Below are positions 1 to 18,807 of a stretch of DNA of 41,961 nucleotides, in pieces; the first letter of the stretch is position 1; each line of letters begins with the position of its first letter. Location: contig NZ_OEZH01000167.1 of NCBI RefSeq assembly GCF_900243075.1, positions 1 to 41,961 of the forward strand. The letters are read 5' to 3'. Origin of the DNA: Clostridioides difficile (GTDB lineage: Bacteria; Bacillota; Clostridia; Peptostreptococcales; Peptostreptococcaceae). The notes beneath the pieces are model-generated. The model ran no database searches and was not told where the DNA came from. It saw nothing but the letters and a program-made list of their open reading frames with translations. The position numbers were made by a program, and so were the translations under genes.

Positions 1-510
1 GTATGCTCTTTTCAACTTCTTCATCCTCTCTAATCTTTTTCTTGTATTTTCTTAATCCATATATGCGACAACTAAATATTTGTCTTATCCAAATCGAATG
101 AATCTATCTTTATGAGTTATAATAGTCGTATTTACCTCATTAGTCATACAACTATCAATTAGTTTATTCCATTTTTTACGATTATAATTTAGTCCACTTC
201 CATAATCTTCAATAACTTCATCTACTATTATTCCTTTAGCATTTGCATATTGTCTAAGAAACTCCACTTGATTTTTCAAATCATCTTTTTGATTAGAAGT
301 TGAAACTCTTGTATAAATAACAATTTTTCTATTCACTTGTTCTTTATGTATTCCTTTATATTCTAAATATTGTTCATAAGTGTAGTATCTTCTATCTGTT
401 GGAGTTCTAAAAGCCTTTAATTTCCCTTCAACATCCCAACGTTGCAGAGTTCTGACTGAAATATTAATTAACTCTGCAAACTCTTTTGGTTTATAGTTAT
501 TGTTTTTCAT
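1..510 (-). pseudogene. IS607-family serine transposase (TnpA), internally deleted
   Basis: The intact N-terminal part (510 down to 85, 141 residues) has a MerR-like winged helix (residues about 6-50, with RTLQRWDVEGKLKAFRT) followed by a serine-recombinase domain starting IYTRVST, whose Ser is the expected nucleophile. This order is that of IS607 TnpA, which is usually about 190-215 residues. Here the frame stops right after HKDRFIRFG. Reading the next bases in another frame gives FSCRIYGLRKYKKK and further charged residues to the window edge, which is the family C-terminus. So about 40 codons are missing and the frame is shifted. The start at 510 has AGAGGT upstream. A tnpB partner, if any, would lie beyond the left edge. 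The family call is confident; loss of activity is inferred from the deletion. Confidence 0.85.
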
Positions 511-3025: not shown

Positions 3026-6000
3026 TTAAGCTTGTGGCTCGTTGTTTTCAGCATCATATCTAAAAATCATAGATGGACGTTTTATAGCTGTCCATTTATC
3101 TCCTTTTTCTACTATGATTTTAGGCTGAGCACTTTTTATGTTGGCTTCTTCTAATTCATAGATTTCTTGGTAACTTGAGTCTGATTTTTTGATTTCAACT
3201 AGTTTCATGTCTTTGAATAAGTCAGATTTATTTATTTTTACTTGAACTTTAGTTTTATTTATTAATTGATATATCGGATTGTTTTCCATCATATCATCCT
3301 TTAATCCCTCATTTAATGTTACTATTAAATCAGTGTTATTTTCAGTAATGTTTATGATTGAATATACTTTATTGTTTATCATTAAAATAGAATCCTTTTT
3401 TACTTTAAGCCCTGTTTCTGATTTAAATATAAACATACTTGAATATAAATCGCCTGTAGGACTACTAGCTTTAATCAGTATCTTATTTTCTCCTAATACT
3501 ATTTTGTTTTGTGGTATCTCAAATATAATGCTATTTATTTCCAAATTAGTCTTAGTAGATATTAATTCATCATTTATAAACATTTCAAGTTTTTCTATAA
3601 CATTATTAGGGTCTTGTACTACAACTCTCACTTGAGATATTGATTTTTCAACTATTTCTATAGATGCTTTACTTGTATCTACTTTTGTTATCATGTATAT
3701 TGTATCATCTGAAAGCTCTATATCTAAAATATCATTTAAATGTTCAGGAACTGGTATTTTAGTAAATTCATATAAATCAGTAATTGATATAGATATTTTA
3801 TACATAGATTTATTTTTACCAGTTATCCATAGACTATTATCATTTTTAATTACTAGTATATGGTCATCATTGTGTGACTTAATTTCTTTAACATTAGTTA
3901 ATACTTTAGTAAAAGTTCTTATTATTTTATCTTTTTCACTTTCTCCTAGTCCAAACAATCCATTTGTATTATACCCTTGAGCGTACAACTCTCCCTCATT
4001 AGTTAAAACAAGTGTCATTGAGTTATATATACTTATATCTTTAGCAGAAGGTAATCCAGTAACCTTTTGTAACTCTCTTACATCATTATTGTGACCAACT
4101 CCCAATTGGTACTCAGTATTCTTTCCATATGACCATAGAGTATTATCTGTCTTAATAATATAGGAGTAGTTATCTCCACAAGCAACTTTTTTGACATCTG
4201 ATATATTTACTTCAGTAAGAGTTAATAATTCTATATCTTCAAGAGTTTGATTAATTTCTTTATATGAATTACTTCCTATTCCATATAACTTGCCATCCTT
4301 AGCAACAGCCAATGAATGTGTTTTTGATATATCAATATCAGATACCTCAAATGGCAATATTATTGAAGTATACTTAAAATTATCTTTAAATATGTTTTTA
4401 TAATTTATATACTTATTATTTGTTTTTATATACTTATCATTAAACATTACTAGCTTTTCATTTTTCTTATTAAAAACTATTTTATCTGATGTGTTATCTG
4501 TTTTAAAATATGAATGTAGGGAACCTTCAAGAGCTTCATTTTTATCATTATCATATCTATGGTGAATACCTAAATGATTATATCTGTTATCTCCTGTTGA
4601 AGAATAAAATTTTCCATATATATCTTTAATAAATATAGTATTGTAACTAGAAAATACAGTATCAACATCTTTCTTTATAGATACTTTATAATATGGAGCT
4701 GGTATATCCATATAATACTCCTCAGATATGCCATAATTATCTCTACCTGATGATATTAAATTGTTATTATTATCTATATAAAGTGTATTATTAGCTGTTA
4801 CAAAAACATCTTTAACATTTTCCACACTATTTGTATTGTTATTATTTGCTATACTTCCATATCCACTAAGACCTCCAACAAATAGTTTATTGTCATTTGT
4901 TAAAATGGCTGAAGTATATCCATTAACTACTATTTTTTTTGCATTTATAATATTATTAATTACTCGTATACCCTTTATATCATTAGTTTCTGTTGAAAAG
5001 AATACCCTCTCTTTTTTCCCTGTAGTATAAATCATATTGTCATTTGTTATAAAAAATGTAGCTTCACTTCCTGCTGTCACAACAGATTTTACATTCTCAA
5101 TATTTATTTTTGTAAATGTACTTATACTACTTTCAGTGAATCCAAAATATCCATTTACAAATCCACATACATAACATGTATTATCATTTTTGACAATGAT
5201 TGATACATCATTACATAGATATACATCTCTAACACCATTTATAGGTATACGTGTAAATATATTCCTACTTGTAGTATCACCCAATCCTAACTGTCCTTTT
5301 CCATTATTACCTGCTCCATATAAAAGACCATCATTAGTTAATAATAGAGATGTGTTTCCATATACAGCTACATATTTTACATTTTCAACATTTATTTTAG
5401 TAAATACATTTCTATTTACATTATCTCCTATTCCTAACTGACCAGAATTATTTAAACCAACAGCATAACAGGTATTATCATTTTTTATAGCAAATGCATG
5501 TTTACTATTGTCAGTAAATCTATTTACACTTATAGATTTTATATTATCAATATTTATTTTAGCAAATACCTTTCTATTTATCTCATCTCCCACTCCTAAT
5601 TGACCTACATCATTTAAACCAACACTGTAAAGCATATTATTATTAGTTAATAAATATGTAGACTTTGAATGGCTATATATTTCTTGTATATTAGAAGATA
5701 TTTCACTACTGCTATTCTTTTTATTGTAATTTATCTTATTATTTAAATTTAAACTACTATTAACTGATATACCATGCGTACCCTTAGAGTTATATCCACA
5801 TATAAATAAGCTCTTATCAGTTAATATTGCAAATCTAGTTTTATCTCTACTTAAATCATAAGGAGGTATAAATATATTTTTTATATTTTTCATTACCTTT
5901 TTACAGTTAGTTGCATTATATCCACCTTGTAAGTCTGATACATCTAGAGCTTTTGCACTTTCAGATATATTCCCAAAACCATATAGTGTATTAGAGGATA

Positions 6001-8347
6001 GATATAATAATGCTTTATATAAAAGTATAGCTTTGTCAGAGGTAATAGGACCTGAACTTATATTAGATGATGCAATATTACTAGATGATAGATTATTAAA
6101 GTAATTCCTTCCATATTGATGTATATAAGATGAACCTCCAGAAATAAGTAAATTGTCTGGATTATAGTTTGTTAAACTACTTGATGATTCCCCATAGTAC
6201 AAATAGGCAAAATTTGTAGAATAAGAAGATCGTGTACATCTTGTAGGATAATAGTTATATTTATGGTTTTCATTATATCCAGCATATGAAATTCCTTGAT
6301 TTTGAATTATATAACTTGAACCAGTTGGTTTTGTCCATGTAGTACCATGATATCCAGTTATAAAAGAACCGAAGTTTGTACAAAATATAACCACATACTC
6401 ATATATAATAATATTATTAATTTTGGTAATATCATTTTGGCAAGAAACTCTAGTATAGCTTTCTCCTCCTGGATTTATATAATACCAATAATCTAATAAT
6501 CTTAAATTTATACTACTTCCTTCATTATTTCCCAATCCAAATAAATAATTTGTATTTATACCAGTTGCATATACCTTTTTTTCATCGGCTACAATAAATG
6601 TTGCATTGTATGCACTATATGCATCTGTGACATTACTAACACCAATCTCAGTATATTGACTTATTAATGCATTACTAAGTCCATTAACATAGGTTGAGCT
6701 CTTTCCAGAAGTGTATATTTGCTTATTATTAGTTACAATTAATGAAAACCAGTTTGATAAATCAGTATTTATAACAACTTTTTTTATATTATCTATAGAT
6801 ATTTTCTTAAATATATCTGAATTAGAAGGAAGAACACCTGCTATTGAGTTACTATTTGGCCCAGAATAATAACAAGTATCATCATTTTTAATGTAGAATA
6901 TTCCTCCAGAAATATTTTTTGATGCTACTATAGACTTTACATTAGATATACTTAATTTTGTCAATTCATTTAATTGACTTGGTAAGTCAGAACCCATTCC
7001 TTTATATCTATTATTTCCTAGACCATATACATCTCCATTCCCTAAAATAACCATAGTACAATAAGGACTAAAAACGACATCTCTTACAGAATGTATATCT
7101 AGTGGAAGTTCAATATCCTTTATTTCCATTTCTTCTTTTAATAAAGTTAATTTATCCTCAGATTTAATTAAATTTATATAATTACTATAACTATATTTTT
7201 CACTATCCATTTTCTTAAATTCTACAATGTGCATATCATCAAAAAACGAACCTAATTGTCCATAAGTATTATCTCCTGTACAATATGAATCATTATTTGA
7301 ATCAATTAGTATACTATGTGATAAACCAATGAAAATACTCTTAGCTACAATATTTTTTAAATCTATAAATGAATTATCTATATTCTCAGAGTAATTTGCT
7401 ATACCCAACTGGTATATATCATTATTTCCAGCAACCTTCAAAGTACCTTTATTATCTATAAGCATAGTGTTACCATGACCACATGCAATAGTTTTTATAT
7501 TTACTTCTTCTATCTTAGTAAATAGTGATGATTGAAGTGCATTTCCAAAACATTTTTCCTTTCCACAACCATATATATCATTATTATACGTCATTAACAC
7601 AGTGTGTTCAGAACCACAAGCTATAGTCTTAACATCATTAATAGAAACTAAACTAAATAAATCTCTATTATTCTTATCTCCTAAACCTAGTTGACCTTGA
7701 TTATTAAAACCAGTAGAATAGCATTTATTGTCATTCTTTATTATAAAAGCTGATTTATTATATGAAAATACAGCCTTTACATTGTCAACATCTACTTTTA
7801 TAAATGTATTTACATTTGCAGATGCTCCATTAGTTCCTAGACCTAATTGACCATACAAATTATTTCCAGCAACATATAAAGTTCCATCATTGTATAAAAG
7901 ATATGTTGATTGAAGTCCACATGCAATATCCTTTACGCCTTTTATTTCTGGAACCTTCTCAAATGTAGAAACTGTTTTCCCTACTTTTTCTAATCCCAAT
8001 CCCATTTGACCATCTGTATTTATACCTGCGACAAGTAATTCTCCATCTGAAGTAAGTATAACTGCATGAGATTCTCCACATGCAACTTTTTTAATATTGG
8101 TAGATATATTTGGTATTTTCGTAAATAATTTTCTTGTTGTATTGTCTTCTCCCAATCCAAGTTGAAAGTTACTATTATCTCCACATCCATACAAGATATT
8201 ATTATTTTTTAGACCAAATGTATAGTTACAACATCCAGTAAAAAAATTAATAAAGTCATAATTATCATACCCTTCATCAAATTCATCAACTACCATATTT
8301 TTATCGCCAAAGAAATTACCTCTTTGAAGTAGTTTAGTTCTTTTCAT
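3026..8347 (-). CDS. Giant RCC1-repeat receptor-binding tail protein
   Basis: At 1773 residues this is the largest gene of the locus. It consists mainly of RCC1-like blades of about 50 residues, each with a G.N..GQLGLGD turn followed by FTKI..NVK.VA.G and a hydrophobic strand. I count roughly two dozen blades, the cleanest near residues 50-330, about 930-1120 and about 1385-1500. The stretch of about residues 640-800 is degenerate and rich in Tyr, Ser and Asn. From about residue 1540 the repeats give way to a different beta-rich module and a C-terminal tail ending RYDAENNEPQA. Several seven-bladed propellers in series are therefore likely. In diffocins the protein at this position is the roughly 200-kDa receptor-binding protein that sets strain range by binding the S-layer; length, position and repeats here agree. 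AGGAGG precedes the ATG. No signal peptide or enzyme motif is seen. Confidence 0.88.
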   Translation of the reverse strand: MKRTKLLQRGNFFGDKNMVVDEFDEGYDNYDFINFFTGCCNYTFGLKNNNILYGCGDNSNFQLGLGEDNTTRKLFTKIPNISTNIKKVACGESHAVILTSDGELLVAGINTDGQMGLGLEKVGKTVSTFEKVPEIKGVKDIACGLQSTYLLYNDGTLYVAGNNLYGQLGLGTNGASANVNTFIKVDVDNVKAVFSYNKSAFIIKNDNKCYSTGFNNQGQLGLGDKNNRDLFSLVSINDVKTIACGSEHTVLMTYNNDIYGCGKEKCFGNALQSSLFTKIEEVNIKTIACGHGNTMLIDNKGTLKVAGNNDIYQLGIANYSENIDNSFIDLKNIVAKSIFIGLSHSILIDSNNDSYCTGDNTYGQLGSFFDDMHIVEFKKMDSEKYSYSNYINLIKSEDKLTLLKEEMEIKDIELPLDIHSVRDVVFSPYCTMVILGNGDVYGLGNNRYKGMGSDLPSQLNELTKLSISNVKSIVASKNISGGIFYIKNDDTCYYSGPNSNSIAGVLPSNSDIFKKISIDNIKKVVINTDLSNWFSLIVTNNKQIYTSGKSSTYVNGLSNALISQYTEIGVSNVTDAYSAYNATFIVADEKKVYATGINTNYLFGLGNNEGSSINLRLLDYWYYINPGGESYTRVSCQNDITKINNIIIYEYVVIFCTNFGSFITGYHGTTWTKPTGSSYIIQNQGISYAGYNENHKYNYYPTRCTRSSYSTNFAYLYYGESSSSLTNYNPDNLLISGGSSYIHQYGRNYFNNLSSSNIASSNISSGPITSDKAILLYKALLYLSSNTLYGFGNISESAKALDVSDLQGGYNATNCKKVMKNIKNIFIPPYDLSRDKTRFAILTDKSLFICGYNSKGTHGISVNSSLNLNNKINYNKKNSSSEISSNIQEIYSHSKSTYLLTNNNMLYSVGLNDVGQLGVGDEINRKVFAKINIDNIKSISVNRFTDNSKHAFAIKNDNTCYAVGLNNSGQLGIGDNVNRNVFTKINVENVKYVAVYGNTSLLLTNDGLLYGAGNNGKGQLGLGDTTSRNIFTRIPINGVRDVYLCNDVSIIVKNDNTCYVCGFVNGYFGFTESSISTFTKINIENVKSVVTAGSEATFFITNDNMIYTTGKKERVFFSTETNDIKGIRVINNIINAKKIVVNGYTSAILTNDNKLFVGGLSGYGSIANNNNTNSVENVKDVFVTANNTLYIDNNNNLISSGRDNYGISEEYYMDIPAPYYKVSIKKDVDTVFSSYNTIFIKDIYGKFYSSTGDNRYNHLGIHHRYDNDKNEALEGSLHSYFKTDNTSDKIVFNKKNEKLVMFNDKYIKTNNKYINYKNIFKDNFKYTSIILPFEVSDIDISKTHSLAVAKDGKLYGIGSNSYKEINQTLEDIELLTLTEVNISDVKKVACGDNYSYIIKTDNTLWSYGKNTEYQLGVGHNNDVRELQKVTGLPSAKDISIYNSMTLVLTNEGELYAQGYNTNGLFGLGESEKDKIIRTFTKVLTNVKEIKSHNDDHILVIKNDNSLWITGKNKSMYKISISITDLYEFTKIPVPEHLNDILDIELSDDTIYMITKVDTSKASIEIVEKSISQVRVVVQDPNNVIEKLEMFINDELISTKTNLEINSIIFEIPQNKIVLGENKILIKASSPTGDLYSSMFIFKSETGLKVKKDSILMINNKVYSIINITENNTDLIVTLNEGLKDDMMENNPIYQLINKTKVQVKINKSDLFKDMKLVEIKKSDSSYQEIYELEEANIKSAQPKIIVEKGDKWTAIKRPSMIFRYDAENNEPQA

Positions 8348-13671: not shown

Positions 13672-14091
13672 TTATTTTGGAGTTACTTTTGGTATTTTTA
13701 TTCTTTTATACTCTTTTAAGTCTAATGTAAAATATACATCTCGAGTCCCATCTCTTTCTTCATAGTTAAAACCTTCAATTATGACCTCCATATTTATATT
13801 TGTTTCTGTAATTGTAAATCTTAGTATAAATCCTTCTCTCATCCATTTTTCAATCTTATTTACACAATCATATGGTGATGGAAAGCCTGTATAGTCACAG
13901 AAAGTATAGTCTTTATTTGGGAAAAAACTTGATATTGAAATGCTTTTAAGAGCTACACCTCCAAAAGTTGCTATTTCACCTATTTTGAGTATACTAGAAG
14001 AGTTTACAGCAGCTTTTCCATTAATACTAAAGGAAGATGGAAATATTGGAAATCTAAATCTATCTTCTGCTTGTCTAAGCCACATTTCCAT
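13672..14091 (-). CDS. XkdP-like tail protein lacking a LysM domain
   Basis: This 139-residue protein resembles the N-terminal domain of XkdP-type proteins (WLRQAEDRFRFPIFPSSFSI, SSILKIGEIATFGGVALKSI and FFPNKDYTFCDYTGFPSPYD). These lie between tape measure and hub and help assemble the hub. Full-length family members of 200 or more residues end with a LysM module; here the protein stops after KIPKVTPK, where the linker to LysM would begin. No LysM-like coding is visible in the 68 bases to the next gene. Its ATG shares a base with the tape-measure stop (TAATG). Either the LysM was lost or this is a naturally short form. Confidence 0.8.
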   Translation of the reverse strand: MEMWLRQAEDRFRFPIFPSSFSINGKAAVNSSSILKIGEIATFGGVALKSISISSFFPNKDYTFCDYTGFPSPYDCVNKIEKWMREGFILRFTITETNINMEVIIEGFNYEERDGTRDVYFTLDLKEYKRIKIPKVTPK

Positions 14092-16547
14092 TATAATACA
14101 CCTCCCAATTGCGCTATTTTTATACTTGAAACTAATTTTGATGTAACTTTTTCTATGTCAGCTTCTTCTCTAATTACTATTGTATCAGCTAACTTGGCTA
14201 TACTTATATTTCCACCATTTTTTCCACTTCTATATTGATTTGCTTCTTGTTTAGTTAGGACCATTTCACCCTCATGAAGCCTTGTTGGGTAATCATTATA
14301 AGGAATATAGTTTAATCCAAAGGCGTTTCCAAACAACGCATTTATATCAGGATTCGTACCTGAATCATGAGCTAATCCACTGTCCATTCCTCTTTCTTTA
14401 TATTGCTTTCTTCTTTCTGTAACATATTTGCCTATTTTAGCTGTTATAGGACTTTCATTTATAGACTTAACCATCTTTTTCCATAAATCGCAAATTAAAT
14501 TTATAAAATCAGATAAGTTTTTTAACGCATCAAGAAAAGAATCTAAAAGTGGCTCCAAAAACTTCCATGCCTCTTCTAAAATTGGACCTAATGTTTCCCA
14601 CACAGTTTTCCATACATTACCCATAGTTTCAATAAAGTAATTTATTTGTGGTGCATGTTCTCCTAAAAAAGTAAAAATTCTTGTGATAATAGGGCTAACA
14701 GCTTCAACTACAGGCCCGATTAATTGAAATGCTGTAGTTACTATTGTCCCAAATATACTTATTAATCCTTGTGCAATTGGTGATTTATTGTTTATACTAT
14801 CTAGTAAATTATTTACTAAGTTTACTACTGGAAGTAAGGAATCTATTAATGCTGTAAAATCAATATTTTGTAATAGTGTACTTCCTGCGTTAACAATTGC
14901 CTTTGGTGCATTCCCTATCATTCTTGCTGCATTATTTTCAAAATTCTCTTGCTTATTTTCAGCCATTATCTTACGCTTTTCAACTTCACTAGAAAGTCGA
15001 AATTGTGTAGCATCAGGAAGACCTTTTTTATTTTTCATGCTTCTAAACTGCATTTGTTCATCCTTATTAATAGTAACTCCCCTACCATTCACTACATTAC
15101 CTATCTTTTCAGCCATTCTTTTAGATACACCTGCTAAATTCCCTAATCCACTTTCTATAAAAGTTTTTATTTTCTTTAATCCTTGACCTAAAATATCATC
15201 GAAAGGTTTAACAATACTCTTCAAACCATTGTTAATGCTTGTTTGAGCTCCTGCTATTATACCTGGTATTGTATTACTCATTTCTTTGGCTAATCCCATC
15301 TGCTTTACACTTATACCTTCCAATGCTTCATCAAAAGTTTTATAATTTTCTCCTACTAGAGTATTAAGGGATTCCATATTTCCTTTTGCTGCACTTAAGA
15401 AAGCTGCTGATACATCTTGTTCACTACTTGTATTCATATTTAAAGCTCTAACATCCACCATAGCTTGAGTTATATCTTTTTCTTTTTTGCCACCAGTAAT
15501 ATTACTAATCATTTTAGCTTTAGTTCCCATTGCAACAACATCTTCAGGGTCAAAAGGCGTATCATTTGCCATACTTACTAAACTGTCATAATACTTATCA
15601 ACATCTTTTCGGCTAGTTTTTCCAGTATTTCTTTTCATTACACTTTCTAGAACAACTTTCTGATTTTGTTCCTGACCAAATAAGTCAACACCCTTTTTCA
15701 CAGCGACACCTATAGTAGCACCATTTGTCAAATCAGATATCTTCCCTTTTATTGAACCAAGTATTCCACTTGCCATATCCTTTACAGCTATTGCACCACT
15801 CCATACCTTACCTGCAAACAATCTCAATTTGGGAAATACTTTACTTATAATGCCACTTGCCATATCTTTTATAGCTATTACACCACTCCAAAAAGTATTT
15901 TTAAACAACATTAACTTAGGCAAAATTCTACCCATAGCACTGCTCACCATATCTTTAAGATTAATACTTCCTTGATAAGGACGTTTCTCCACTCGTTTTA
16001 ATTTTTCCAAGATACTACTTATCACTCTCTTAGTCATATCTTTTGCTTTTATTACAATCTTCCAAACCCTGCCACCAATCTTTTTTAAACTTCCAAGTAA
16101 TTTATTTTTAATTTTTTCTATTTCATCACTTTTAGCTTTAAATATTAATATAATCATAATATTTGAATTAAACTCATTTTTCTTTTGAATCAACTTATTA
16201 AAATAATTAATAATCATAGCTATAGTTATTGCTAGTCTCATAATACTTCCATTTAAACTTCCAATAACTCCTGAAACAGAATTTATGCTAGAACTTAATT
16301 TTGTCATAGTTGAACTTACACTGCTAGCAGTAGTCTGAACTTTTCTTAATGAGGAATTTAAACTGTTTACTCTACTACTTGCACTTCCAATAGAATTTTT
16401 TATGCTACTAGCCATCACATTAGTAGAAAGTGAAACAGCCACAGTTGCTCTCCTAAAATTATCAGTTACTGATATAATTTGATTCATTTTTGGTGTGTAA
16501 TTATCTGTAAGATACATATTTATACCTTCTTCTCTCACATTTCCCAC
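14091..16547 (-). CDS. Tail tape measure protein
   Basis: Read from the GTG at 16547 this is 818 residues. I prefer that start to the ATG at 16574 because GGAGGTGG lies eight bases upstream and the GTG overlaps the TAG ending the frameshift extension (TAGTG). N-terminal helices rich in Ser and Ala (residues about 30-110) lead to a hydrophobic segment (MRLAITIAMIINYF). Then come four imperfect repeats ending in I.(V/A)KDM.S.I, and later a hydrophobic stretch (LISIFGTIVTTAFQLIGPVV) and a C-terminal domain with YPTRLHEGEMVLTKQEANQY, a common tape-measure ending. Such proteins set tail length; at about 0.15 nm per residue 818 residues imply roughly 120 nm. Confidence 0.9.
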   Translation of the reverse strand: MGNVREEGINMYLTDNYTPKMNQIISVTDNFRRATVAVSLSTNVMASSIKNSIGSASSRVNSLNSSLRKVQTTASSVSSTMTKLSSSINSVSGVIGSLNGSIMRLAITIAMIINYFNKLIQKKNEFNSNIMIILIFKAKSDEIEKIKNKLLGSLKKIGGRVWKIVIKAKDMTKRVISSILEKLKRVEKRPYQGSINLKDMVSSAMGRILPKLMLFKNTFWSGVIAIKDMASGIISKVFPKLRLFAGKVWSGAIAVKDMASGILGSIKGKISDLTNGATIGVAVKKGVDLFGQEQNQKVVLESVMKRNTGKTSRKDVDKYYDSLVSMANDTPFDPEDVVAMGTKAKMISNITGGKKEKDITQAMVDVRALNMNTSSEQDVSAAFLSAAKGNMESLNTLVGENYKTFDEALEGISVKQMGLAKEMSNTIPGIIAGAQTSINNGLKSIVKPFDDILGQGLKKIKTFIESGLGNLAGVSKRMAEKIGNVVNGRGVTINKDEQMQFRSMKNKKGLPDATQFRLSSEVEKRKIMAENKQENFENNAARMIGNAPKAIVNAGSTLLQNIDFTALIDSLLPVVNLVNNLLDSINNKSPIAQGLISIFGTIVTTAFQLIGPVVEAVSPIITRIFTFLGEHAPQINYFIETMGNVWKTVWETLGPILEEAWKFLEPLLDSFLDALKNLSDFINLICDLWKKMVKSINESPITAKIGKYVTERRKQYKERGMDSGLAHDSGTNPDINALFGNAFGLNYIPYNDYPTRLHEGEMVLTKQEANQYRSGKNGGNISIAKLADTIVIREEADIEKVTSKLVSSIKIAQLGGVL

Positions 16548-16744
16548 TATATACCACCTCCTGTCAAAGGACACACTCCATATCCATGTTTCATCTTTTC
16601 AGCTTCTTCCTCAATTTCTAAGGCGAAAAAAGCTTCAATAAGCTTTAATTCGCCTTTATCCATTGCATAAAAAAGGGACGGTCTTATACCTTTTTTCTTC
16701 CAATAATAGTACATTATTGTAGTCTTGGTATCCGTCCCTATTAG
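16547..16744 (-). CDS. Tail assembly chaperone frameshift extension (-1 frame)
   Basis: A reading frame of 65 codons overlaps the end of the upstream chaperone gene and has no start of its own. It is entered by a -1 shift at the heptamer A_AAA_AAC (16750-16744) just before the zero-frame TAA. The product continues LIGTDTKTTIMYYYWKKKGI and ends with an acidic helix and CPLTGGGI. The Trp-Lys-Lys-Gly-Ile-Arg-Pro-Ser element resembles the extensions of tail chaperones in other phages with contractile tails. The long form would be 220 residues. The segment is followed by the tape measure gene at a TAGTG overlap, the expected gene order for the lambda G/GT arrangement. Confidence 0.85.
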   Translation of the reverse strand, partial: LIGTDTKTTIMYYYWKKKGIRPSLFYAMDKGELKLIEAFFALEIEEEAEKMKHGYGVCPLTGGGI

Positions 16745-16750
16745 TTTTTT
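16675..16750 (-). promoter_or_regulatory. Programmed -1 frameshift signal: slippery heptamer plus long-range stem
   Basis: A_AAA_AAC is at 16750-16744 in the correct zero frame (GTA AAA AAC TAA). After a five-base spacer, GGGACGG (16738-16732) can pair perfectly with CCGTCCC (16681-16675). Inside the 50-base loop CAATAAT and ATTATTG (16719-16701) form a second perfect 7-bp hairpin. The combination is a classic stimulator arrangement. Confidence 0.8.
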
Positions 16751-17187
16751 ACCTCTTCTATAACTGCATTTTTACCATAACCCATAACATCTTGAAGTAT
16801 TCTATATAAGTTGGTAATTTCACCTGGTAATAATAATTTTCTTGCCAATTCTTTTGGCGTTGGAGCCTTAAATTTATCCATTAGCTCCTTATTTTTAAAT
16901 AAAAGCTTTCCATCTAAATCACAGACACCTTCTATAATTGTAAGCATCTGCATTTCTGGTAAGTCTATATCCGTTTTCATATTTTCATCAATTTTAAGAC
17001 AAGTATTTTGTATCTCCTCATCTTTACTTATTGTTAAAGCTCTACACATTACTTTAAATTCCTGCCCAAATATAGTTGATAATCTCTTAAGTTCAACTAT
17101 AGTACTTGGTCTTTCTAAGTTTTCTGTATCTGCATTTAAAAGTAAATCTACTATGTTTATATTTTTTGATAATCCATTTTCACTCAT
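16741..17187 (-). CDS. Tail assembly chaperone, XkdN-like (zero-frame form)
   Basis: 148 residues from the ATG at 17187, chosen because AAGGAG lies eight bases upstream; an ATG at 17208 would add seven residues without a ribosome site. It shows the XkdN pattern: a short N-terminal strand (NIVDLLLNADTENLERPST), then VELKRLSTIFGQEFKVMCRA and a helical C-terminal half with KELARKLLLPGEITNLYRIL. These proteins coat the tape measure during tube assembly and are not part of the mature tail. The gene lies between tube and tape measure, and ends in the slippery site that gives the longer -1 form. Confidence 0.9.
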   Translation of the reverse strand: MSENGLSKNINIVDLLLNADTENLERPSTIVELKRLSTIFGQEFKVMCRALTISKDEEIQNTCLKIDENMKTDIDLPEMQMLTIIEGVCDLDGKLLFKNKELMDKFKAPTPKELARKLLLPGEITNLYRILQDVMGYGKNAVIEEVKN

Positions 17188-17300: not shown

Positions 17301-17729
17301 CTAAATTATATCAAGAAAATCATACTCAGTAAATGTGAAAGGAGCCTCTATCTCTCCTTTTACGCCAACTTCCCAATCAGCTAAAGTTAAATCATCAAAC
17401 GCTATATTTTTTACTGCTATTCTTTCTGCTCCATAAGAATCTGGGTCATTTAATTTAGATATAGCAACAAATCTAGGTTCAGAACCTCTCTTTATCTTTT
17501 CTCCAATTAATTTGTGCATTCTTGAACTAACATGGTATAGAGTTATTGAACCTTTTCCTTTATATCCCATATACTTCGTATCAGTACCCATTTGACCTGC
17601 TATTATAATATCCTCTTTTGTAAATTCCATCTTTGCTTGAAACTTCTTTACCTCTGCTACTTTGTTTCCATCAAGCCAAAGTTCTCCCCAAGTACCACTC
17701 ATTACATTTCTAGCTTCCATATTTGCCAT
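17301..17729 (-). CDS. Tail tube protein, XkdM-like
   Basis: A 142-residue protein of the DUF2001/XkdM tube family: ARNVMSGTWGELWLDGNKVA at the start, then KFQAKMEFTKEDIIIAGQMG, DTKYMGYKGKGSITLYHVSS, and GEIEAPFTFTEYDFLD at the end. It polymerises as hexameric rings to form the inner tube that is driven through the target envelope. AGGAGG lies upstream. It follows the sheath gene by 13 bases, the usual sheath-tube order. About 110 bases separate it from the chaperone gene; I see no gene there. Confidence 0.94.
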   Translation of the reverse strand: MANMEARNVMSGTWGELWLDGNKVAEVKKFQAKMEFTKEDIIIAGQMGTDTKYMGYKGKGSITLYHVSSRMHKLIGEKIKRGSEPRFVAISKLNDPDSYGAERIAVKNIAFDDLTLADWEVGVKGEIEAPFTFTEYDFLDII

Positions 17730-17742
17730 ATTAATAATCCTC

Positions 17743-18807
17743 CTATATTTCTATTGATAAATCTATATCTTCCATAGCATCAAGTACTTTTATTTTTGCT
17801 TTTAAAAATACTTTAGAACCTGTGTTAGCTTCTTTTATTTCTTGTAATGTCATATAAGATAAATCTACTCCCTTTGATTTTAAATATGATTTTTGTGCTT
17901 CAAAATCTATTTCAACTGTAGAATTAGATTCTATAAGTGCAGATTTTTCTAATTCTTCTAAATAACTTTTTATAGCTACTATCAATAAACATTTGTTATC
18001 ATAACTGTTAGTAACCTTTCCTATATAGTCATCTATTATCACTTTTCTTATGTCACTATGTATAATATCTAAAGTGTCAACTATTTTTATTTTCTGGAAC
18101 ATTTCTCCTTTTTCTACTGTTAATTCAGTTAAAGAATTTACTCCTCTTGCAATTCTTATAGCACCAGCTTCCTTAATAAGTATAAGCTCCCCTTTATTAA
18201 CCCTTGATTCTGCATCAACTTTCGTCATCTTAGGTATATCAACTACATCACTAAGCTTAGTATAAGTCACTGATTGACTTAAAGGTGTTCCTGCTATAAT
18301 ACCAGCCATCCTACTTGTAAACTCATCAACACTATATTTCTTTTCTCCAACTAGTACATCTTCTGTAGTAAAATTAATTATACCTTCATGATTTCCTACA
18401 ACTTTTCCTAATACAGCCTTAACTTTCACTTTATCTACATCTCTAAGTTTAATTATCCAATTTTTTATAGCAGTCTTATCAGCTTCTACTGCTTTAGGCA
18501 TACATAGATAATTAAATTCCTTAGTCTCTAAAAAGTCCAGTGCAGTTTGAATATCTGCCTCTCCTTCTATTACATAAGCTAACAACTTATTTGGAGTATT
18601 AACATTTCCCATCAAAGCTAAATTTATATATTCTTTATTTTCAGCAGATAAATCAGCTGGTATATCCTCTTTTTCATGTACTTCATTAAGACCTAGTGCC
18701 TTAGTATCTTTAAGCACCATTGCAATTATTCCTCTAGCTGAACGTTCTTTAACAGTTGTAGCTAGCTCCTTAAATGATATGTTGATACTTGGTAATCCTA
18801 TAGCCAT
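17743..18807 (-). CDS. Contractile tail sheath protein, XkdK-like
   Basis: A 354-residue member of the phage sheath family: GLPSINISFKELATTVKERS at the N-terminus, VLKDTKALGLNEVHEKEDIP, the middle block FTSRMAGIIAGTPLSQSVTY, and the C-terminal polymerisation domain with RVNKGELILIKEAGAIRIAR and GVNSLTELT. The domain order is typical of the short R-type pyocin/PBSX sheath rather than the larger T4 form. Its presence makes this a contractile (R-type) particle. GGAGAG lies upstream, and the gene directly follows the terminator-like gene. Confidence 0.95.
   Translation of the reverse strand: MAIGLPSINISFKELATTVKERSARGIIAMVLKDTKALGLNEVHEKEDIPADLSAENKEYINLALMGNVNTPNKLLAYVIEGEADIQTALDFLETKEFNYLCMPKAVEADKTAIKNWIIKLRDVDKVKVKAVLGKVVGNHEGIINFTTEDVLVGEKKYSVDEFTSRMAGIIAGTPLSQSVTYTKLSDVVDIPKMTKVDAESRVNKGELILIKEAGAIRIARGVNSLTELTVEKGEMFQKIKIVDTLDIIHSDIRKVIIDDYIGKVTNSYDNKCLLIVAIKSYLEELEKSALIESNSTVEIDFEAQKSYLKSKGVDLSYMTLQEIKEANTGSKVFLKAKIKVLDAMEDIDLSIEI

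Follow-up and report, generated by a model that had tools for sequence, protein, structure and literature searches.

We examined a 41,961-nucleotide (nt) stretch of Clostridioides difficile DNA (contig NZ_OEZH01000167.1 of assembly GCF_900243075.1; hereafter the window), in which a tail assembly chaperone gene carries a candidate −1 ribosomal frameshift site. The module and its neighbouring tail genes lie on the minus strand, and all coordinates are those of the window. The chaperone gene (16741..17187) encodes a 0-frame product, the G form, of 148 amino acids (aa) from ATG 17187, which matches PF08890 (Phage_TAC_5; E 1.5e-31; 109.6 bits against a Pfam gathering threshold of 27) and the XkdN-like phrog_389 (E 7.7e-38). 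A profile of the chaperone family (alignment A4, 38 rows selected for diversity) matches YqbN (3klu) with E 8.5e-34. Foldseek likewise matches a structure model of the G part to 3klu (E 2.9e-4) and to the HK97 chaperone 2ob9 (E 1.1e-3), with probability 1.00, and the model indicates that the G part has a tail chaperone fold. The gene sits between those for the major tail (tube) protein (17301..17729; PF09393, E 3.1e-53) and the tape measure protein (14091..16547; 818 aa from the likely start GTG 16547; phrog_991, E 5.1e-140), which is the gene order of lambda G/GT.

The slippery heptamer A_AAA_AAC (16750-16744) lies in the 0-frame phase GTA AAA AAC and directly abuts the 0-frame stop TAA (16741..16743), as the original prediction had it. 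The five-base spacer TAATA (16743-16739) likewise separates the heptamer from a downstream stem. The −1 frame is open from 16744 for 65 codons and a TAG (16547..16744; phrog_2722, E 2.1e-25); this TAG (16549-16547) overlaps the tape measure start, its G opening the GTG (TAGTG). One claim of the prediction falls: the long product would have 213 residues rather than 220, because the Shine-Dalgarno-like AAAGGAG at 17203-17197 suits ATG 17187 and not TTG 17208. Taken together, the gene order, the chaperone fold, the heptamer in its phase and the conservation of both the −1 frame and the RNA structure support the predicted module by sequence and comparison, and a programmed −1 ribosomal frameshift very probably yields two tail assembly chaperones from this one gene.

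The heptamer is conserved far beyond the window. In the family, 27 of 71 genomes carry a PF08890 match; among genomes sampled from the class and from the phylum, the figures are 51 of 391 and 51 of 398. Additional searches supplied further loci. The 194 rows entered reduce to 188 distinct loci after removal of five identical duplicates and one that runs off its contig; a weak match in a 668-aa frame (G152:C8), the second pieces of two split matches, repeat loci and a hit to the extension at the edge of a contig (G422) were left out. The 188 include four disrupted or fragment matches, kept unaltered, so that 184 non-disrupted homologues remain. A_AAA_AAC stands immediately before the stop in 153 of the 188 loci and one codon before it in a further 15. 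The remainder comprise seven loci with A_AAA_AAA, two with A_AAA_AAG, one with A_AAA_AAT, six without a heptamer within 6 nt, and the four disrupted loci. In five of the six, an in-phase heptamer lies farther upstream of the stop: A_AAA_AAC at 30 nt in three of them, A_AAA_AAT at 12 nt in another and, as judged by eye, A_AAA_AAG at 54 nt in the fifth; no in-phase heptamer was found in L122. Conservation of stem and heptamer among homologues had been set beforehand as the point on which the prediction could fail, and it survived: 183 of the 184 non-disrupted homologues carry an in-phase A_AAA_AAN, and the outer stem shows compensatory changes across relatives (see below).

Relatedness among these loci does not remove the pattern, as A_AAA_AAC with an immediate stop is found in 66 of 76 cluster representatives at 50% identity and in 18 of 23 at 35%. 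The same DNA holds 842 other open reading frames (ORFs) that reach 100 codons, counted mechanically from stop to stop and so not equivalent to all genes. Of these, 16 end likewise; by position all 16 are copies of the chaperone, leaving 0 of 826. For comparison, mean distances from slip site to stop of 26 nt (SEA-PHAGES) and 36 nt (Xu phages) are given in an excerpt of PMC10885494. This survey indicates that the stop-abutting A_AAA_AAC module is family-wide in PF08890 chaperones. Among the variants, A_AAA_AAG at the stop might have been confined to genomes lacking tRNA-Lys(CUU); this idea was dropped, as the two genomes with that variant, G073 and G267, both have tRNA-Lys CTT. An earlier, stricter tRNA-Lys pattern had matched in one of eight genomes, and ARAGORN called no tRNA at that match.

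The stop codon behind the slip site appears to be more than a by-product of the −1 reading frame. In 161 of the 176 loci used for the extension and stability analyses (two rows whose extension runs off the DNA were excluded), the first −1 codon is CTN, and its third base decides whether the 0-frame meets a stop at once. Were the frameshift real and the stop incidental, the −1 frame would simply need its nearly invariant Leu-Ile, with the stop arising whenever the leucine codon happens to be CTA or CTG. This alternative is favoured by the 15 loci whose stop comes a codon later, which show that the stop need not be immediate. Codon choice argues the other way. Elsewhere in these chaperones and extensions, CTN codons are most often CTT (the extensions, counted from codon 3, have CTT 217, CTG 188, CTC 91, CTA 64), yet the first −1 codon is CTA in 111 loci, CTG in 41, CTC in 8 and CTT in 1, where ∼62 CTT were expected. 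CTA and CTG together account for 152 of the 161 against an expected 45% (binomial 1.5e-41, ignoring relatedness). Across the 23 representatives at 35% identity the counts are CTA 14, CTG 3, CTC 2, CTT 0 and other or missing 4. The stop is kept directly behind the slip site beyond what codon usage would give, as in a shifty stop; the immediate stop looks selected, and the protein alone does not explain the preference for CTA and CTG. An incidental stop nonetheless keeps a substantial share of our credence, somewhat short of an even one. The original prediction recorded the abutting stop without recognising it as unusual; the family comparison indicates that this feature, kept throughout, is more unusual than the long-range stem described below.

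The extension itself has the marks of a translated protein. Its variable sites in 11 Clostridioides rows fall 4, 5 and 17 on the three −1 codon positions (17 of 26 on the third), with 13 variable codons synonymous and 9 residue-changing. The uncorrected ratio of nonsynonymous to synonymous differences per site (pN/pS) is 0.06–0.15 for three of the pairs, rising to 0.21 with L011, a more distant row. These patterns indicate a real protein constrained at the protein level. In an alignment of 45 extension members, also selected for diversity (A3), at least 90% of the members keep Pro22 and the Leu-Ile with which the extension begins. Like that of lambda G/GT, the −1 extension is open, conserved and reaches the tape measure start. 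Twenty-three of the 45 match phrog_2722, and eight other PHROGs are matched by fewer members; the extension thus falls in several PHROGs annotated as of unknown function. None of the 45 matches any Pfam family. The extension is modelled as three helices with a mean predicted local distance difference test score (pLDDT) of 81, block averages of 89–92 across residues 11–50 and a predicted template modelling score of 0.56. A viral fold search with this model returned nothing at E ≤0.001, the best hit being an uncharacterised phage protein at 0.036.

Such a conserved protein could also be made as a separate small gene by internal initiation, with no frameshift at all. The phrog_2722 match begins at residue 11 of the extension, a methionine, and four phage records annotate a partial coding sequence within the extension, both of which suit this alternative. 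Against it, only 94 of the 176 extensions have any in-frame ATG in codons 3–25, only 13 have a Shine-Dalgarno-like stretch before an in-frame start there, and the nearly invariant Leu-Ile lies right after the heptamer, upstream of any such start. We regard internal initiation as highly improbable.

The RNA downstream of the slip site folds into a multi-tier structure. As predicted, GGGACGG (16732..16738) pairs with CCGTCCC (16675..16681) across 50 bases to form a 7-base-pair (bp) outer stem (16738-16732 / 16681-16675), to which the fold adds A16739. The predicted second hairpin is also present within this loop: CAATAATG-TAC-TATTATTG (16701..16719; arms 16719-16712 / 16708-16701, the last pair being G-U). 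Between the two, folding adds a 5-bp middle helix absent from the prediction (ATACC, 16727..16731, with GGTAT, 16686..16690). The fold of 16660-16760 has an energy of -23 kcal/mol (z -3.49), which one of 200 shuffles equals. A T run 3′ of the outer stem (16674-16669) could pair with an A run in the loop (16696-16691) to form a candidate pseudoknot; alternatively, as the fold of 16660-16760 draws it, this T run may pair with the slip site (16750-16745).

The long-range closing stem had been thought an oddity, which comparison does not bear out: it is present in 32 of 37 loci chosen and folded, comprising 13 of 13 in the tailocin clade and 19 of 24 others. The folds indicate that a long-range multi-tier hairpin is the common form in this branch, a statement confined to the branch rather than the whole family. 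Across the 176 loci, the 90 nt that follow the heptamer mostly fold more stably than shuffles that preserve the −1 protein and its codons (mean z -1.93; at most 10 of 200 shuffles as stable in 102 loci). Averaging by cluster gives -1.96 over 76 clusters at 50% identity and -2.02 over 23 at 35%. Control windows, each with 50 shuffles, give -0.31 (n=173) and -0.31 (n=173) for two upstream positions and -0.10 (n=138) for the end of the extension. Similarly, the longest uninterrupted stem beginning 2–12 nt past the heptamer averages 8.45 bp, compared with 6.56 in shuffles.

Covariation of the outer stem was examined in an alignment of 19 rows chosen by eye (A1). Over 18 distinct chosen relatives, the covariation score is 0.300 against 0.164 in shuffles, none of 500 shuffles reaches it, slid registers score at most 0.187, and 73.5% of the alignment cells are paired. 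Canonical pairs number 182, against a mean of 167.4 and a maximum of 181 in 400 protein-preserving shuffles. The compensatory changes sought in the stem are thus seen across the chosen relatives and hardly at all within the diffocins, where the stem is nearly invariant; the sole pair changed on both sides in that clade goes from G-C to A-U, in L011 and L020. A common stem register for all relatives had to be abandoned, as the diffocin arms pair 4 nt out of register with those of prophage relatives; the architecture is therefore kept while the pairs change.

Several observations weigh against this reading of the site. In Escherichia coli, A_AAA_AAC promotes slippage far less well than A_AAA_AAG does (PMC5009743, in excerpt). 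The stability shuffles do not preserve dinucleotides, 74 of the 176 loci are individually no more stable than their shuffles at the 0.05 level, z is positive in 17, and the two upstream controls are themselves slightly negative. No outer stem folded in five of the 24 chosen non-tailocin loci (L051, L052, L067, L070, L077). The covariation rows were picked by us, and the structure was derived from one of them (L026). The eight pairs with double changes are a count reached by 25 of 500 shuffles, and the one pair in 23 changed on both sides within the diffocin clade is reached by 168 of 500. The protein-preserving shuffles also show that part of the pairing in relatives is forced by conserved amino acids, and the stem is longer than in 95% of its own shuffles in just one of the 19 rows. 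We nonetheless read the combined comparisons as indicating that RNA structure after the slip site is selected.

With such a structure behind the heptamer, the frameshift could proceed as follows. Most ribosomes would end at TAA and release the 148-aa G form. The hairpin, 5 nt downstream, would delay the ribosome while the slip site occupies its decoding sites, and a minority would slip one base back on A_AAA_AAC, reading CTA instead of TAA and continuing to a 213-aa G-T form that ends on the tape measure start codon. If the two products act as in lambda, the tape measure would be coated by G forms, with the sparse G-T forms bringing in the tail tube protein. The occurrence and rate of slippage, and the separate roles of the two products, are what we infer from this arrangement. 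Since the extended form would end on the tape measure start, whose Shine-Dalgarno-like AGGAGG (16562-16557) lies within the extension, translation of the two genes may be coupled as well. Slippage of RNA polymerase along the A run, joining the frames in the transcript, would suit the run itself and seven nine-A relatives that on average lack excess RNA structure, but in the window and most relatives the run is just six A and then a C, and polymerase slippage needs neither the conserved phase, nor the C at position 7, nor the abutting stop, nor the downstream structure, so we find it scarcely credible.

The nine-A relatives (L069, L070, L071, L074, L077, L197 and L202) have a nine-A run before the stop in place of A_AAA_AAC, with stability z values of 0.44, 0.39, 0.40, 0.72, -0.68, 1.25 and -2.10; these seven may have switched from ribosomal to polymerase slippage.

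For the ribosomal frameshift, the position of the stop raises a further suggestion. With a stop immediately behind the heptamer, a release factor and slippage could compete on the same ribosome and help set the ratio of G to G-T, a step of which we are less certain than of the others. A stronger form, in which the whole chaperone family uses a stop-coupled −1 frameshift, the slip taking place once translocation has moved the Lys and Asn tRNAs into the E and P sites and brought the stop into the A site, is a tentative idea that we consider rather unlikely. If it were true, termination speed and not the hairpin alone would set the G to G-T ratio, tail assembly would be tied to release-factor activity, and it would be explained how a heptamer that is weak in E. 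coli serves so many Bacillota phages and tailocins. If the abutting stop takes part, the family would offer a natural, much-replicated test case for competition between termination and −1 slippage in bacteria.

That many annotations would miss the extension held among phage records. From 44 matched records we examined 15 phages, 13 of which have A_AAA_AAC and an immediate stop; in MismyG a single codon intervenes, and EJ-1 has a continuous frame. None of the 14 annotated phages (HGP05 is without annotation) describes a join, and in four of them the annotation covers only an internal stretch of the extension, entered as a hypothetical protein of its own. In Streptococcus phage EJ-1 (L219, 602-1198), chaperone and extension are deposited as one 198-aa frame. 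EJ-1 has one base more than its close relative MismyG (L223, 602-1006), which keeps the frameshift site, and its continuous frame is either a natural fusion or a sequence error.

By Pfam and PHROG profile matches, the window holds a contractile tail cluster in the order terminator, sheath (17743..18807; phrog_1480, E 2e-147), tube, chaperone, tape measure, Dit-like protein (a match below the Pfam cut-off), hub with NlpC/P60, sheath initiator, baseplate J and tail fibre. No family match among the 23 window frames scanned names a capsid, portal or terminase (frames beyond 27758 lay outside the scan). The natural reading of the cluster is a diffocin-type tailocin, because relatives of the chaperone at 94–95% identity are from C. 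difficile and those at 71–72% from Metaclostridioides mangenotii. At the fibre end, a 1773-aa protein (3026-8347) has an RCC1-like match (phrog_7220) and is perhaps the receptor-binding part. Elsewhere in the window (85-510), a MerR-like helix-turn-helix is fused to a resolvase N-terminal domain, an arrangement known from IS607-type elements.

Stop codons directly after the heptamer, combined with long-range RNA structure, are also found at the −1 sites of luteoviruses and dianthoviruses; these are plant RNA viruses with other slip sequences and products, and no relation is implied. The same heptamer at a G/GT-type site is reported for haloarchaeal HCTV-2 (PMC5009743, in excerpt) and as a possibility for Paenibacillus larvae phage Dragolir (excerpt of PMC6003738), the heptamer being the feature they share with the window locus. 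The XkdN/YqbN chaperones of PBSX-like elements (PF08890; 3klu) share sequence family and fold with the window chaperone and are known by their 0-frame product, the extension falling outside Pfam. In phiCD508, a relative, mass spectrometry did not detect the XkdN-like gp57 in virions (PMC11948020, in excerpt), as expected of an assembly chaperone. A term search of two diffocin cryo-electron microscopy papers (PMC11329794, PMC13324602) did not return the word frameshift, and the open-access literature searched describes none for XkdN-family chaperones, though subscription papers may mention one. The same literature yielded no description of a stop-abutting A_AAA_AAC cassette, family-wide and with a long-range hairpin; its novelty cannot be claimed firmly. 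The kind is already known from lambda G/GT and its −1 frameshift, from which the roles of both products are taken here (PMC5009743, in excerpt). The window locus resembles lambda in its position between tail tube and tape measure, its short G form with a −1 extension, its slippery heptamer and, via HK97, its chaperone fold. It differs from lambda in having A_AAA_AAC with a stop directly behind it and a long-range hairpin; its extension matches no named family, lambda T itself being outside the comparison. As a member of this kind, the module would add a conserved second protein product to a large tail chaperone family of contractile-tail phages and tailocins, including the diffocins.

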